From: Candidatus Poribacteria bacterium
GTDB taxonomy: Bacteria; Poribacteria; WGA-4E; WGA-3G
Length of the DNA stretch: 48,299 nucleotides
Assembly (NCBI GenBank): GCA_009841255.1
Contig: VXMD01000018.1
Location: forward strand, 156,736-205,034
Direction: 5' to 3'
Shown here: positions 22,294 through 30,710 of the stretch, piece after piece
How positions within the stretch are numbered: the first letter of the stretch is position 1
Layout: the number at the start of each line of letters is the position of its first letter
Made by a program: the position numbers and the translations under genes
The notes under the pieces: model-generated
What the model was told of the DNA's origin: nothing
What the model saw: only the letters and a program-made list of their open reading frames with translations
The model's database searches: none

Positions 22294-24780
22294 ATGAAAC
22301 CCAGGTCTAACTTTGTAACAATATTCCTTGTTGCATTCTCTATCTGTCTCGCATCGGGAATCGGAATTCCCTCCTACGCAGCGAGCGAGATGGAACAGCC
22401 TGCAAGTGCCGAAGTTCCGACGGTGCAAGCGTTAAAAGTCCACCCTGAGTCACTAACATTGGAGCACGCGCGTGACGGTAGACGCGTGCTTGTGTCAGGA
22501 AAGACGAAAAGTGGCGCGTGGGTAGATGTAACACCTTATGCGGCACTGACACCTACCACCGCAGGAGTGAAAGTGTATGAAGATGGTTATATCTTCCCGA
22601 TGGCGGTGGGCACAACAAAAATTACGGTGACCGTCAAAGGTGTCAGCACCGAATTGCCCGTGACCGTTAAAAGCATGGATGCACCCCCTGTCAGTTTCGT
22701 GCGAGATGTCATGCCACTCCTGAGCCATGCTGGGTGTAATAACGGCACATGTCACGGTGCAGCAAAAGGCAAAAATGGGTTCAAACTCTCACTCCGCGGC
22801 TACGACCCCGATTTCGACTATGAACTCTTAATCGAGGACATATCCGGACGGCGGTTCAACCGAGCGTTCCCAGAACAAAGCCTGATGTTGCTAAAACCGA
22901 CATCGGAAGTGCCGCATAAAGGCGGACAGGTAATCGTCCCAGGCGATCGGGATTATGAAATCATTCGTCAATGGATAGCGGAAGGTGCTACTCCTGACGT
23001 TCACACCACAAAACGCGTCGAAAGGTTGGAGGTCCTACCCGATTCGGCTGAGCTTGCAACGCCGGGTATGAAGCAACAACTTATCGTGATCGCACACTAT
23101 CCCGATGGCACAACCCGGGATGTCACCCGTGAAGCGAAGTTCACAAGTAGTGTCAATGAGGTAGCAAAGGTTACAGACAATGGTGTGGTAACCGCAGAAC
23201 GCCGTGGCGAAACTGCGATCCTCACCCGATACGAAGGCGCCTATAGCACGAACGGCATCATCGTTATGGGTGACCGGAGCGGCTACAAGTGGGTCAAAAC
23301 CCCCGAATACAACTATATTGACACACACGTTCACAATAAGCTGAAGCGGATGAAAATCCTACCTTCTGAACTTTGCACGGATGAAGAGTTTGTACGACGC
23401 ATCTATTTCGATCTGACAGGTCTCCCGCCGACGCCGGCACAGGTGCGGAGTTTCTTGACCGATACGACCGCCTCTAAAGCCAAACGGGAAAAACTCATCG
23501 ATACCCTCGTCGAAACATCGGAGTTTGTTGACCACTGGACGCATAAATGGGGCGATCTGTTGCAGTCTAACCGTAAATTCCTCGGTGAGCGTGGGATCTG
23601 GCTCTTCCAGCAGTGGATCTACCAAGCCATTGCCGAGAACCGTCCGTATGATGAGTTTGTGCGTGAGCTGATTACCGCAACCGGTAGCACTTACACAAAT
23701 CCCGCAGCAAACTATTTCCGTGTTTCCCGTGAATATACGGCTGCCGTGGAAAACACAACCCAACTTTTCTTAGGTGTTCGGTTCTCATGCAACAAATGCC
23801 ATGACCATCCCTTTGAAAAATGGACGCAAAACCAGTACTATGAATTCGGTGCGTTCTTCGCGGATGTCAAAGTCAAACCGGGGCAACTTCCCGGCGATGA
23901 GGTCGTCTATGCCAACTACACCCCGGAGCCTGTGAAACACCCGCGGACGTTAGCCGTGGTTGAACCCGCAGTCCCGTTCGGAGAAGTCGCGGAAGAAACC
24001 GACGACAAACGTGAAATGCTCGCAGCGTGGCTCACCGCTAAAGAGAATCCGATGTTTGCTCGGGCAGGTGCGAACCGTATCTGGAGTTACTTCATGGGAC
24101 GTGGGATTATCGAACCTGTAGATGATATTCGAACAAGTAATCCACCGACGAACCCTGAATTGCTTGACGCATTGACTCAGGACTTCGTGGACAGTGGATT
24201 TAACATGAAACATATCATGAAGACAATCACACGTTCTCGAACCTACCAACAGAGCATCACGACCAATAAGTGGAATAAGGCGGATACGATCAACTTTTCG
24301 CACGCAGTTGCCCGACGCTTGACGGCAGAACAGTTGTTAGATGCGATTGGGATCGCGACAGGAAGCCGCCCACGATTTGAAGAGATGCCGAAAAAATTCC
24401 GAGCGGTGCAGTTGCCGGACAGCAAGGTCAAAGACGACGGATTCTTGAAGTTGTTTGGCAGACCTGAGCGCGAAACCTCGTGCGAATGCGAACGTACCAC
24501 GGAGGTCAGTCTCGCACACGCAATGAACCTTATTAATGGACCGACGGTTGCAGAGTCACTCATCGATCCAGAAGGACGTATTGCACAACTCATCGAAACG
24601 AATCATGATGACCGGGTTCTCGTCGAGGAACTCTATCTCGCAACGCTCTCTCGGTTACCGGAGAAGAACGAATACGCAGTAGCGATTGAACACCTTGCGA
24701 ATGCCGAATCTAAGGAAGAAGGTGCGCAAGACTTGTTGTGGGCACTCATTAACAGTCCCGCTTTCTTATTCAATCGATAA
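22294..24780 (+). CDS. PSCyt1 / Ig-like / DUF1549 / DUF1553 protein (planctomycete-type cytochrome)
   Basis: The ATG at 22294 (directly behind a TTG) gives 828 residues with a signal peptide (FVTIFLVAFSICLASGIGIPSYA). In order: a bacterial Ig-like (BIG2) region, a cytochrome-like segment with CNNGTCHG and NGFKLSLRGYDP, a second Ig-like stretch (about 250-330), DUF1549 (about 345-540, including SCNKCHDHPFEKW) and DUF1553 (about 570-810, including ANRIWSYFMGRGIIEPVDD). These proteins are characteristic of Planctomycetes, Verrucomicrobia and Poribacteria, are exported, bind haem through CxxCH and are encoded beside DUF1501 proteins, as here. The role is thought to be extracellular polymer or sulfated-sugar degradation with electron transfer, but is not proved. 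Confidence 0.92.
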   Translation: MKPRSNFVTIFLVAFSICLASGIGIPSYAASEMEQPASAEVPTVQALKVHPESLTLEHARDGRRVLVSGKTKSGAWVDVTPYAALTPTTAGVKVYEDGYIFPMAVGTTKITVTVKGVSTELPVTVKSMDAPPVSFVRDVMPLLSHAGCNNGTCHGAAKGKNGFKLSLRGYDPDFDYELLIEDISGRRFNRAFPEQSLMLLKPTSEVPHKGGQVIVPGDRDYEIIRQWIAEGATPDVHTTKRVERLEVLPDSAELATPGMKQQLIVIAHYPDGTTRDVTREAKFTSSVNEVAKVTDNGVVTAERRGETAILTRYEGAYSTNGIIVMGDRSGYKWVKTPEYNYIDTHVHNKLKRMKILPSELCTDEEFVRRIYFDLTGLPPTPAQVRSFLTDTTASKAKREKLIDTLVETSEFVDHWTHKWGDLLQSNRKFLGERGIWLFQQWIYQAIAENRPYDEFVRELITATGSTYTNPAANYFRVSREYTAAVENTTQLFLGVRFSCNKCHDHPFEKWTQNQYYEFGAFFADVKVKPGQLPGDEVVYANYTPEPVKHPRTLAVVEPAVPFGEVAEETDDKREMLAAWLTAKENPMFARAGANRIWSYFMGRGIIEPVDDIRTSNPPTNPELLDALTQDFVDSGFNMKHIMKTITRSRTYQQSITTNKWNKADTINFSHAVARRLTAEQLLDAIGIATGSRPRFEEMPKKFRAVQLPDSKVKDDGFLKLFGRPERETSCECERTTEVSLAHAMNLINGPTVAESLIDPEGRIAQLIETNHDDRVLVEELYLATLSRLPEKNEYAVAIEHLANAESKEEGAQDLLWALINSPAFLFNR

Positions 24781-24796
24781 ATGGAGGAAACAATCG

Positions 24797-26242
24797 ATGT
24801 TATCGTTACCACAACTACCCGGACGCCTATGTGACGGGTTCTCACGTCGTGAATTTCTACGTGTTGGTGGTGCGGCGATGCTCGGCATTAGTTTGCCACA
24901 GGTATTGTCACTCCAAGCCAACGCGAATACAACAGTTGACCCCGCCAAACCACTCAACGGATGGGGGAAAGCCAACTCGGTCATCCTTCTTTTCTTGCAA
25001 GGCGGTCCGAGCCACCTTGATATTTGGGATCCGAAACCGGAAGCTCCCTCGAACATCCGCGGTGAATTTAATCCGATCCCGACCAACGTGCCGGGAATCC
25101 AGTTGTCTGAGACGATGCCGCGTTTGGCACAACAGATGGATAAAGCGTGCCTTATCCGTTCGGTAAGTTACACACCGGCGGGACTTTTCAACCACACCGC
25201 TGCAATGTACCAAATGGTAACCGGTGAAACACCGGACAAGGTTGCGCCCTCGGGACAACTTGATCCGCCGTCCCCTGCTGACCATCCGAATGCCGCATCG
25301 CATATCGCAAACTATCGTCCACCCGATGAACCGATGCTCGCGGCAGTGCAACTCCCGCGCCCGATGCAGGAGAGTAATATCATCGGTAAAGGTGGAAACG
25401 CTGGCTTCCTTGGGAGAGCCTACGATCCGTATTTCCTCTTCCAAGATCCGAATCAGGAGATTAACCTCGACGATTTGAGCTTGCGTCCAGAGGTGCCACC
25501 GGTGCGTTTGAAACGTCGGAAAAACCTCCTTGAGACGATTAACAAAGGGATGCCCGAAATTGATAAGGTAGCAGATTCTTACGCCTTGAACGAGTATTAC
25601 GAGAAGGCGTATAATCTCATCTTGTCGCAGCGAGCGCGCAATGCGTTCGACTTGTCTCAAGAACCGGATGAGATGCGAGATAAGTACGGTAGACATACGT
25701 TCGGGCAGAGCGCACTCCTCGCTCGCCGGTTGGTGGAAGCAGGTACCCGCTTCGTGCAGGTGAACTGGCCCTCCGTCGCTAACGGTGATCCGAATACCAC
25801 GGCATGGGATACACACGCAACGAACTTCGGTCCGTTGAAGAACCTCCACTGCCCGAAGTTAGACAGTGCCGTCTCCTCACTGCTGGAAGACTTGGATCAA
25901 CGCGGTATGTTGGACGATACCCTCGTCTTAGCGATCGGTGAATTCGGACGCTCGCCGCGGATGGGTATTAGCACTTCCGGTAACAGCAACGCGCCCGATG
26001 GACGCGATCACTGGCCCTATTGTTACACAGGTCTGATTGCAGGTGCTGGTGTTAAAGGTGGACAGGTCTACGGGAAGTCCGATGCAACAGGCTCAACGCC
26101 GCTTGAGAACCCGGTGCATCCAACAGACATTCTTGCTACGGTCTATCATACACTCGGTATCGATCCACACACCATCGTGTACAACCACTTGGATCAACCA
26201 CGTGAATTGGTGAAAGGCGAACCGATTGCCGGGATATTTTAA
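24797..26242 (+). CDS. DUF1501 protein with Tat signal
   Basis: The frame opens at 24686, but the ATG at 24797 is chosen because GGAGGA lies 10 nt upstream and because it gives a Tat signal peptide (SRREFLRVGG, then AMLGISLPQVLSL) within the first 40 residues. The product has 481 residues and the DUF1501 features: a metal-site-like NSVILLFLQGGPSHLDIWDPKP, RLVEAGTRFVQVNW, and the C-terminal LVLAIGEFGRSPRM with DGRDHWPYCYTGL, resembling the alkaline-phosphatase/sulfatase fold. It follows the PSCyt gene by 16 nt, the standard arrangement for this pair, and should be a partner of that protein. The hydrolytic substrate is unknown. Confidence 0.93.
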   Translation: MLSLPQLPGRLCDGFSRREFLRVGGAAMLGISLPQVLSLQANANTTVDPAKPLNGWGKANSVILLFLQGGPSHLDIWDPKPEAPSNIRGEFNPIPTNVPGIQLSETMPRLAQQMDKACLIRSVSYTPAGLFNHTAAMYQMVTGETPDKVAPSGQLDPPSPADHPNAASHIANYRPPDEPMLAAVQLPRPMQESNIIGKGGNAGFLGRAYDPYFLFQDPNQEINLDDLSLRPEVPPVRLKRRKNLLETINKGMPEIDKVADSYALNEYYEKAYNLILSQRARNAFDLSQEPDEMRDKYGRHTFGQSALLARRLVEAGTRFVQVNWPSVANGDPNTTAWDTHATNFGPLKNLHCPKLDSAVSSLLEDLDQRGMLDDTLVLAIGEFGRSPRMGISTSGNSNAPDGRDHWPYCYTGLIAGAGVKGGQVYGKSDATGSTPLENPVHPTDILATVYHTLGIDPHTIVYNHLDQPRELVKGEPIAGIF

Positions 26243-26398: not shown

Positions 26399-28096
26399 AT
26401 GAATCCAATCCTCAGCGATAAAATCGCGCTCAATATTGATGATGATGCCAAAGTTTCCGTCAAAGGTTTCATCGTCCCGATTGAACATACCCAATCCAAT
26501 TACCACATGGAGTTTGAGTGGGAGGAGTTAGCGAACTTTCGCGTTGACGTGCCCGAAAAGGTGTATTCGGCATCCGTTTTTCGCGCGTTCCTCCCAGATG
26601 CAGCGGTATCCGTTGGAAATCCGTGGCAGATTGAAGACGCGGGTGCGCTTGAACTGCTTCGACAACTTCATCCGAACCCACGTTTGGATATGCGCGATTA
26701 CGGGGATCCTGGGTTGTGGGCATGCCTGCGTGCTTATACCGATGAATTTGCAGACATTGTGTTTCGCATTCATACGGAATTTAAGTTAGGCGATGGCTGG
26801 TTCACGCCTTCACAGCTTACGGGACATCTCATTATCAACCGTCTGACAGAGACGGTTTCGTTCTTTCAGATGCGCCTGCCGGACGGTCCTGTGAACTTTG
26901 AGGTTGGCTGGGAGGATGAAAGGAGTTGGTGTGACTCTAACTGGATTGCAGACACCGGTTTCTGCGCACAAATGGAACTCCGTGCTGGTGCCGAAGATGT
27001 TCTGCGAGACATCACAACGCTCTACAGATATGGCTCTCCTACGGAGAGCTTCAAAGGAATTTATTCTCCCGATGAAGCACCCCAGCGGGGTGCTATGTCT
27101 GTAGAGGAAGCCGAGCGTGTGCTAAACTGCCAGTTTTACAAATCGGAACAAATCAATTGGGTCTCAATGGAGGCGGCGTTGGAATTAGCACAAGCACAGC
27201 AGAAACCAATTCACGCCATTTCCATAGACGGACCCTTGGCGGACGAGGCTTGCTGAGGGACAGGCAAAAGCCTGAGGGCAGGTGCTCTCTCCGACGAACA
27301 AAACATCAAATTCTTGAATGAACATTTCATCAATACATGGGTATCCAACGTTGCCTTCGGGCGCACACCAAACAAGCGTGCTTATCTTGCCCAGAGAATC
27401 CAGCACGGTTTCAAAGGTGTTGACACGACACACCCGTTGGCGCAAGCCATTATAAGTGGGTGGCATCTACACTCACCCGTAGACTGTCTGGTTATCTCAC
27501 CTGAACTGAAACTGATGGGTAGGCAAGATGCCAATCGGTTCCTCGGAGATAGCAGGAATCGGGGACTCCCCGAAGCGGAGGGGTACCGTCTATTCTTATC
27601 GGAAGCCTTAGAAGGAAAATCCCCCGGGTTGGGTAGAATCGTCCTCACCCGTGTGTGTCCCGCAGTGGAGGTAATGGACACTTTTCAGACCGCTATGGTA
27701 CCCCATCAAGACTACACCGTCGTAGAGATTGATACCACGGCGTTTGAAAACGGCGGTACGCTTACGCTGGATATCGGCGTTGGGAGAGGTAGGGCGGCAG
27801 GAACTTTCTACCTGTTTGATGACGCCAAAGACGTCCCGACAGAAAAAACACCCGAAGGCGTACCGCCCTCTGTCTGGGAAAGTCAAGTAGGCGACGCGTA
27901 TGTGGAAGCTCTCGGTGCCCGCGCCATAGAATGGTATATCGGTCCCGAAGAAACGGGGAAAATCACGTACCCTTTTGACCAGGGCAAGTTGTTTCGCTTG
28001 TGTGTTACGGGAAGTGTGTACGGTGTGAGAGGCAGCCTCAACGCCTTCAGCCTCAACATCTCTGTAGAAGAGAGAACAATCAAGATACCGTCTTGA
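26399..28096 (+). CDS. Selenoprotein N homologue, in-frame UGA at Sec286
   Basis: Read with TGA 27254-27256 as selenocysteine, the frame gives one protein of 565 residues from the ATG at 26399 (GAGAGAG in front). The first part contains GWFTPSQLTGHLIINR, CAQMELRAG and a HAISIDGPLADEA segment, followed by C-U-G-T-G-K-S-L-R-A and LNEHFINTW. These match, in order, the WFTPAQ-type, Q-M-E-L and SCUGSGR...LNESFISTW blocks of animal selenoprotein N (SELENON), the C-U-G motif aligning with its Sec. After 370 the protein carries an extra region of beta-strand-like sequence (VVEIDTTAFENGGTLTLDIGVG). There is no signal peptide. Conventional calling would give two genes, 26399-27256 and 27314-28096, in the same frame. 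It lies among PSCyt and pre-peptidase-domain genes. A redox role is inferred from the family. Confidence 0.88.
27274..27289 (+). promoter_or_regulatory. Putative bacterial SECIS element, SelN homologue
   Basis: GAGGGC-AGGT-GCTCTC forms six pairs including one G-U, with the same A-G-G-(A)-U loop as the hairpin at 17453. The loop GG begins 24 nt after the UGA (23 nt in the other gene). The preceding hairpin CAGGC-AAAA-GCCTG (27261-27274) is closer to the UGA and lacks the loop G, so it is less likely to be the SelB site. Confidence 0.72.
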
Positions 28097-28145: not shown

Positions 28146-30705
28146 ATGCCGAATACGCTATTTCGGAAACGCAGAAGACAGGTTAATGCCCCGCTCCCTG
28201 ATCTCTTAACAAAACAGTCCTTTCTCGTCATAGCGATCTTTCTCCTAACGATTGGTTTCGCATACGCCCAGGTACAACCCACATTGACAACTGTTTTTCC
28301 ACAAGGCGGTCAACAGGGGCGCAGCGTAGAAGTCACACTCACAGGCACAAATCTCGGCACGGCAACAGCGGTGTGGTTTAGTGGGAAGGGTATCACAGCA
28401 GAAATTAAAGAAAAAACGGGGCAAGCCGCTGTCGTTTTCAACGGTGCTGGTGTTTCTGGAAGTATTCCGAGTGACGCGCAGTTGGTCGCATTGCTGACGA
28501 TTGCTTCAGACGCCCCGTTAGGTATCCAAGAGATACGCGTCGTTACGCCTTACGGTGTTTCCAATGCAGGCAGCTTCGTCATTGGAAACCTACGAGAAAT
28601 TATTGAGGGAGAGACAGAGGCATCGGACTCGGAAACCCAGTCTACAATGGACACCGACTGGCTTGCGCTGCCAGTTACCGTCAATGGCACAATTACTTCA
28701 ATCGACGACGAAGACAGTTTCACCTTTCAACTGAAAAAGGATGCCCGGCTTATCTGCGAAGTGGCAGCACAGCAAGTAGGCTCGTTGCTGGATTCCTATC
28801 TCGTTCTCCGAGACGCTAACGGGACTGAGGTCGCCAATAGCGGTCTTGGTAATGCCTTTGACTCCGTACTGGATTACACAGCACTTGAGACTGGAAAATA
28901 TACACTTCACATTCGCGACATTCGTTACAAAGGCGGAGATGGGTATGCCTATCGCTTGAGCATCGGCGAATTACCGTATCTTGAGACGATCTTTCCCCTC
29001 GGTGGGCAACGCGGTACCGAGAATACAGTTACTGTCACGGGCGCGAATCTTGAGACGGTAGAATCCATACAGGTTTCAATAGGTCCCGAAACACCGGCAG
29101 GCGAGCAGTCCCTGCGGGTCCAGACGCCCTCCGGATTGGCTACCAATCCACACCCGTTTGCTATCGGAAATTGGGCGGAAATGATGGAGACCGAACCGAA
29201 TAACACGACTGGAAATGCGAATGCTGTAACGACACCGATAACGCTCAACGGGAAAATCGACAAACCCGGCGACGTTGACTATTTTTCGTTTGAGATTGAA
29301 GAACCGCACCTTCTCGTTTTCGAGGTAGAATCACTTAACCTGTCATCAAAACTGGATGCGCTCCTCACGCTTTATGGTCCGGGAAAACCGATGGAAGCGT
29401 CAGAAGAAATGGCATGGGACGCTAACAAAGAACAGGTCTTAATGGTAAACGACGATGCCATCAATGCCGACGCGCGCATCGACTGGAATTTTGAAGAAGC
29501 TGGAAAGTATTCTATCGCCATTCGAGACTTGAACAACCAAGGCGGTGAAACCTACCCGTACCGATTGAACATCCGTCCGCTGGAACCCGACTGCGAACTC
29601 AGTGTGGTCGTACTTGACAATCGGAATCTTTCGTCTCCCATGGATAACCCGCGCGTCAGCAGAGGCAGCAGTGTTACATTGCAGGTTGATGTCACGCGTC
29701 TCGATCAATTTGCGGGTCCAATTCGGCTGCTGTGTCCAGACCTTCCGAAAACGTTTGATGTGAGTCCGACCATTGTTGAAGCAGCCCAGAATCGGGCAAT
29801 GCTTACGATAACGGCGCCATCGGATGCGCCCCTCGGACTCATGCCCGTCTCCATCGTTGGGGTTTGTGCCGTTGGGGGTCGCCAGATAGAGCGCAATGCC
29901 ACGCCGTCCCCAATCCTGCTTACCGTAATGGATGCGCCGGAATTCACACTGACGCTCGCAGAGATCGGCTTAAGTGCTGTGCACAACAAGAAGGTTGATC
30001 TGCACGTGACGGCAAGCCGACGTGATAACTTCATCGGTCCGATCGCATTATCGGTATCAGGACTTCCAAACCGCGTTTCGGCACTTCCTGATCCTGTTAC
30101 TGAAAAACCTGTCACCATTGCAGAAGGCGAAACAGAAGCGATGATTTCGGTTAAAGCTGGAACTTTTGAACGGAGAGAGGAATTTTCTGTCCTGCCGACA
30201 CCGGGTACAAGTTATATATCAGTTACCGGAACGGCAACTGTCAACGGCGAGGCGGTGAAACAATCGACCCCTGCTATCCCTTTGACGATCGTCGAGGCAC
30301 CCTTTATCGTAACGGTTGAGCCTTTGCGCTTTAGCATTGTCTTCCCCGCAACGGCACCCTCAGCGTCTAAAGTCGAGACCGTGGCACTTACGGAAACCAA
30401 CACAACAGTAGACACCGAAACAGCAAAAGCCGAAGATCCGCAAACAAAGGAAGCGATATTGACGTTAACGATCGTCCGGCAGGGCGGCTTCACAGATGAA
30501 GTCACGTTGACACCGATCGATGTCCCAGAAGGCTTCACCACGGAGGCGGTTACCATCCCAGCAAACGAGACAGAAGCCAAAGTCCCACTAAAGGCTCTCA
30601 GCTCTTTAACGGCGGAAACGTACGAGTTTAAATTTCGGGGCTCTGTGATGATTAACGATAAACCTTTTGAGCAGGATAGTCCTACCCTCAAGGTAAAGAT
30701 TATTT

Positions 30706-30710
<5 letters not shown>
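28146..30710 (+). CDS. Secreted protein with IPT/TIG and pre-peptidase C-terminal domains
   Basis: The 854-residue product has a signal peptide (SFLVIAIFLLTIGFAYA, about residues 30-46; the N-region is long and basic) and then an IPT/TIG-like domain (TLTTVFPQGGQQGRSVEVTL), a pre-peptidase C-terminal (PPC) beta domain (about 150-275, VNGTITSIDDEDSFTFQL), a second pair (LETIFPLGGQRGTENTVTV and LNGKIDKPGDVDYFSFEI, about 275-470), and several Ig-like stretches to the C-terminus. PPC-domain proteins with IPT repeats are regular companions of PSCyt/DUF1549/DUF1501 genes. GAGG lies about 12 nt before the ATG. Presumably an extracellular binding component; no catalytic residues were seen. Confidence 0.88.

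Follow-up and report, generated by a model that had tools for sequence, protein, structure and literature searches.

SELENON is the animal selenoprotein whose loss leads to congenital myopathy, and its catalytic target is debated. In the mRNA of animal SELENON, a stem-loop directly 3' of the UGA acts as a redefinition element. SELENON is known from sponges, other metazoans and a few algae (PMC3473315, PMC7539508). It is absent from the 119 families of prokaryotic selenoproteins inventoried in 2026, and the few families that this inventory reports as shared with eukaryotes are SelD, GPX, deiodinase, SELENOW and MsrA, with SelO-like elsewhere in its table (PMC13188914). Our search of the open-access literature found no paper that names a bacterial or poribacterial SELENON; mention elsewhere is possible.

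The window analyzed here is a stretch of 48,299 nt from the Candidatus Poribacteria contig VXMD01000018.1 (positions 156,736 to 205,034, forward strand; assembly GCA_009841255.1, genome size 5.73 Mb). It carries a gene whose product is very likely a SELENON-family, selenocysteine (Sec)-dependent thiol oxidoreductase with its UGA decoded via the bacterial SelB/SECIS route. The features are listed in Table 1.

Table 1. Features of the SELENON-like locus and its neighbors (positions in the window)
Feature	Position	Strand	Remarks
DUF1501 gene	24686..26242	+	Upstream; position kept in 9 relatives, 97-99% identical
SELENON-like selenoprotein gene, whole	26399..28096	+	565 aa plus stop; from frame reading and homology
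N-terminal beta-rich domain	26450..26989	+	Residues 18-197; common with human SELENON; predicted alone, pLDDT 87
Thioredoxin-fold domain with C285-U286	27140..27619	+	Residues 248-407; predicted model and fold comparison
UGA codon for selenocysteine 286	27254..27256	+	Beside Cys285 (C-U-G); aligned with human Sec462; UGA in 223/223 full-length relatives
Putative bacterial SECIS hairpin	27274..27289	+	Stem GAGGGC/GCUCUC, loop AGGU; spans nt 18-33 beyond the UGA
C-terminal beta-sandwich	27650..28072	+	Residues 418-558; absent from human SELENON; predicted model
PPC/TIG-domain gene	28146..30710	+	49 nt downstream; position kept in 9 relatives, 68-89%

Reading frame and in-frame UGA

Between the ATG at 26399 and the terminal stop, a TGA at 28094-28096, the window contains a single frame of 565 residues (26399-28093) with one internal TGA at 27254-27256 (residue 286). 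Plain ORF calling splits this gene in two, 26399-27256 and 27314-28096. The preliminary description had joined both parts through the TGA into one protein, and this was borne out: the blocks WFTPSQ, QMEL, CUGTGKSLR and LNEHFINTW occur along the joined 565-residue protein in SELENON order, homologues continue past the UGA, and neither half was found as a gene of its own. Nucleotides 27257-27313, which lie between the UGA and the earliest possible start of the second ORF, must be translated, since they code for conserved residues ahead of any second start codon.

UGA was present at the Sec column in all 223 full-length frames fetched from relatives in Poribacteria and Planctomycetota, which are not mutually independent, so that counts from shuffling them are not probabilities. 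Copies lacking the UGA were sought in other poribacterial genomes as copies without a stop; at this site they had a Gly codon (GGA or GGC) or a Ser codon (TCA), and the gene was continuous in a single frame. The in-frame TGA is not a chance event, since the frame of relatives runs on through this TGA in 65 of the phylum's 85 genomes and the GGA, GGC and TCA copies form one uninterrupted frame. The Gly and Ser copies are a natural control against reading the UGA as a gene break. These rare poribacterial copies include L161:5402-6529, L162:634-1536, L163:685-1590 and L164:1117-2022. The Cys-containing bacterial orthologues that had been proposed as a check did not turn up among the stop-less copies listed in poribacterial genomes, all of which were Gly or Ser. 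The vertebrate C-U-G motif noted earlier is present in the window copy (A-C-U-G) and is not universal, as the residues after Cys-Sec vary and other members have C-U-A, C-U-P or C-U-L.

Hairpin downstream of the UGA and Sec machinery

Hairpin-forming potential was found 3' of the UGA in every sequence type. In 52 distinct sequences with Val or Ala at codon 10, the six pairs formed by nucleotides 18-23 with 33-28 after the UGA were 98.7% standard pairs; column shuffles of the same sequences were paired at a mean of 95.8%, and none of 1000 was as high as 98.7%. Where Pro, Leu or Arg occurred nearby, a second register (18-25 with 35-28) was used, and nearly all of these variants formed eight pairs around a GU loop, indicating that pairing follows the protein changes. 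Glu variants had fewer pairs, four to six in the second register, and in a planctomycete subgroup (L099, L132, L133 and L135) the stem was shifted upstream with a loop of CGUGC.

Within the sequence data, codon choice is the clearest sign that the putative hairpin is under constraint. Arg codon 7 at the hairpin was AGG or AGA in 156 of 156 cases (100%) compared to 24% in the rest of these genes, Leu 6 was TTG or CTG in 155 of 155 (100%) compared to 42%, and Leu 11 was CTC in 96% compared to 18%. Wobble bases outside the stem varied freely. Folding energy gave a weaker signal, with a mean z of only -1.2 per sequence against synonymous shuffles. No family matched in an Rfam scan of the UGA region, and tRNA and Rfam scans of the window found no element. 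Another hairpin, CAGGC-AAAA-GCCTG at 27261-27274, was set aside as a SECIS because it occurs in few copies only and lies too near the UGA.

The hairpin was compared with the SECIS of E. coli fdhF, the 37-nt sequence of which was confirmed in 5368 E. coli genomes. Both lie right after the UGA, and the apex of the planctomycete copy L080, GCAGGUCUGC (10 nt), is identical to the fdhF apex. The window copy, in contrast, has its own stem and loop (GAGGGC/GCUCUC, AGGU), and the coding context is unrelated.

The genome of the window encodes a tRNA-Sec (78 bits, anticodon UCA) adjoining selB, and matches for selB (353 bits), selA (596 bits) and selD (361 bits) were obtained. Three sequence features of bacterial selenoproteins were found together: an in-frame UGA kept in homologues (223/223, rare Gly and Ser copies aside), a putative SECIS hairpin immediately 3' of it, albeit without an Rfam match, and selA, selB, selC and selD in the same genome. 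The conserved UGA, the Sec genes and the constrained hairpin suggest that SelB decodes this UGA as Sec. The selD gene itself (C31:125360-126283) has an in-frame TGA, and SelD is probably also a selenoprotein. Contig C50 of this genome contains, besides an intact selB (L171:5466-7406), a frame in which the N-terminus of selB runs on into a LepA-like C-terminus (L171:9325-10701); it is flanked by identical lepB-like copies and is probably a mis-assembly or a recent recombination.

Other readings of the UGA and the hairpin were weighed against this evidence. That the UGA is a true stop, with two separate genes or a decaying pseudogene, would agree with the split frame of mechanical ORF calling; we give it almost no credence, since conservation crosses the UGA in 223/223 full-length relatives, including 27257-27313, the gene is unbroken in the Gly and Ser copies and the Sec machinery is complete. 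Hardly more probable is insertion of another amino acid, through a Trp code or near-cognate read-through. Such decoding would account for UGA inside frames and for Gly or Ser at the site in rare copies, but UGA is also the terminal stop of the window gene, the genome has selA, selB, tRNA-Sec and selD, a SECIS-like hairpin is found at the distance usual for bacteria and the animal homologue has Sec here. The codon bias at the hairpin might instead stabilize the mRNA or cause pausing, with no part in recruiting SelB; in keeping with this, the Gly and Ser copies retain most of the stem. We regard this as quite improbable: the position and GU loop fit a bacterial SECIS, the fdhF apex recurs in the planctomycete copy, the loop has turned to AACU in two of four non-Sec copies (L163 and L164), and the Gly and Ser losses look recent, so that the leftover stem may be a relic.

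Comparison with SELENON and domain anatomy

For comparison we used a provisional human SELENON row, taken as the 590-aa protein, with C written for Sec462. In blastp this row and the window protein aligned over 369 residues at 28% identity (E 1e-35), and the UGA residue came to lie opposite Sec462. A profile built from 51 bacterial members without an animal row scored this human row at 251 bits (E 1.5e-76, residues ~152-583), while none of 200 shuffled human sequences was reported by it; a profile restricted to the clade of the window copy gave E 1e-47 for the same row. These results upheld the proposed homology to SELENON and the placement of the UGA at the animal Sec position, and the predicted protein is homologous to human SELENON along nearly the whole luminal part. 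The published variants p.Sec462Arg and p.Arg466Gln (PMC8967691) fall on C/Sec462 and Arg466 of the provisional row. At least 95% conservation in the 51 bacterial rows was seen at only 19 of the 354 human positions compared, including Cys461, Sec462, Gly465, Arg469, Gly315, His293 and Gly273 (human numbering). Gly273, His293, Gly315, Gly465 and Arg469 are common to the bacterial and animal proteins, and several of them are presumably myopathy missense sites. Human Arg466 is Lys in most bacteria.

No N-terminal transmembrane segment, EF-hand or upstream extension was found, and the frame begins at the conserved domain. The absence of the transmembrane segment and EF-hand indicates that this is a SELENON homologue and not the animal ER calcium-sensor form. 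The bacterial protein further differs from animal SELENON in its additional C-terminal beta-sandwich, which agrees with the extra C-terminal region described previously, in its many copies per genome, and in the UGA, which would be decoded through an in-frame bacterial SECIS, whereas animals use a SECIS in the 3'UTR.

The AlphaFold model had a mean pLDDT of 76, with the residues around Sec (283-290) at low confidence. The N-terminal beta domain, which the animal protein also has, contains most of the invariant residues other than the Cys-Sec pair; against solved folds this domain gave a best Foldseek E of 0.18 and a Z of at most 5.4, and no fold was assigned. The middle domain of the predicted model resembled DsbH (VIA-align Z 13.0), AGR3 (Z 11.3), TXNDC12/ERp19 (Z 10.8) and DsbD gamma (~10), and C285-U286 was placed just ahead of its first long helix. 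The fold of residues 248-407 is therefore that of AGR2/AGR3/TXNDC12 and DsbH oxidoreductases in the model; unlike them, the window protein has C-U in place of CxxC or CxxS and an extra N-terminal beta domain. The CxxC of classical thioredoxins is missing, as C285 and U286 are adjacent and no partner Cys lies two residues away. Together, homology across the luminal region, Sec at the column of the SCUG motif (A-C-U-G in the window copy) and a predicted thioredoxin-like fold around Sec assign the protein to the SELENON family. The C-terminal domain resembled PliG (Z 10.7), GOLD domains (Z ~9, with 9.5 for that of TMED1) and collagen-binding/PPC domains (Z 8.5-9), and a similar domain occurs in planctomycete members L099, L132, L133 and L135. 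For the joined protein, Pfam and NCBIfam yielded nothing above cut-off, and a search by sequence of the PDB copy used gave no match; a PRNT match below cut-off was dismissed as a short chance stretch.

Distribution, origin and proposed function

Relatives in named genome records were almost all from Candidatus Poribacteria, as sponge-associated MAGs. Of the phylum's 85 genomes, 65 carried the family, all from a single order; each had between 2 and about 30 matches, some of them split. The genome of the window has seven full-length genes, each with one TGA, and one fragment. Poribacteria appear to be rich in copies of a single selenoprotein; L168 has seven in tandem within about 11 kb. Signal peptides were recognized by eye in three of the six full-length paralogues of the window genome and were not visible in the window copy, so that members of the family probably function in the cytoplasm as well as outside it. 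Nine close relatives of the window copy (77-84% identical) keep the DUF1501 gene upstream and the PPC/TIG gene downstream. In the genome of the window, the paralogue L182 (C36:11708-12739) is fused to an AhpC/TSA-type (TlpA/ResA-like) thioredoxin-fold domain, which is a possible redox partner. A scan of viral contigs found no relatives.

In Planctomycetota, long SELENON-like members were present in 12 of 392 sampled genomes and in the genome of L099. Most of about 48 other genomes matched in the Sec domain only, in short proteins. These short, mostly secreted proteins (L148, L149, L152-L157, L159 and L160) share the Sec domain with its UGA (e.g. GDLDGGLUSAGHSLRAVTLS) and, in contrast to the window protein, measure about 230-330 aa and have no N-terminal SELENON domain; those scanned were matched by no Pfam or NCBIfam model. 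They may represent another unlisted selenoprotein family.

The tree places the window copy in a derived poribacterial clade that has expanded, with a second poribacterial clade and planctomycete clades closer to the human row. By profile score and identity, too, other copies from Poribacteria and Planctomycetota are nearer the human protein. With human SELENON represented by this one row, the tree joined it to the L080 planctomycete clade (SH-aLRT 89), while grouping it with Poribacteria was not rejected by the AU test (p-AU 0.20 and 0.40). As the AU test leaves more than one position for the human row, no conclusion is drawn on origin or direction of transfer. Of the earlier suggestion that the locus bears on the origin of SELENON, the existence of bacterial relatives stands; the window copy is not the closest of them to the animal protein. 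It is conceivable, if rather unlikely, that SELENON arose in bacteria and passed to eukaryotes, the animal redefinition element being a remnant of the bacterial SECIS kept after a 3'UTR SECIS took over.

In the proposed mechanism, SelB and tRNA-Sec would read the UGA as selenocysteine, guided by the coding-region SECIS hairpin just downstream. Cys285-Sec286, at the helix start in the thioredoxin-fold domain, would most likely cycle between the reduced thiol/selenol and an S-Se bond, and this cycle may reduce disulfides or oxidized thiols of partner proteins. The N-terminal beta domain probably has a part in partner binding or in the shape of the active site, and the C-terminal beta-sandwich could be a lineage-specific binding or placement module. 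We lean towards a role unlike that of animal SELENON, for example as a periplasmic or cytoplasmic DsbH/AGR-type folding factor with no calcium sensing, as there is no EF-hand or transmembrane segment and the nearest folds are DsbH, AGR3 and TXNDC12. Such a role is nevertheless compatible with a Sec-dependent SELENON-family oxidoreductase and touches the role of the protein, not its family.

A large bacterial SELENON family is missing from the 2026 inventory of 119 prokaryotic families. Its hundreds of diverse sequences give the alignment depth to tell catalytic from animal-specific residues, its soluble forms without membrane segment or EF-hand are suited to expression and crystallization, and its gene neighborhoods and fusions hint at partners. 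The family is thus a bacterial starting point for the study of the human myopathy protein SELENON.
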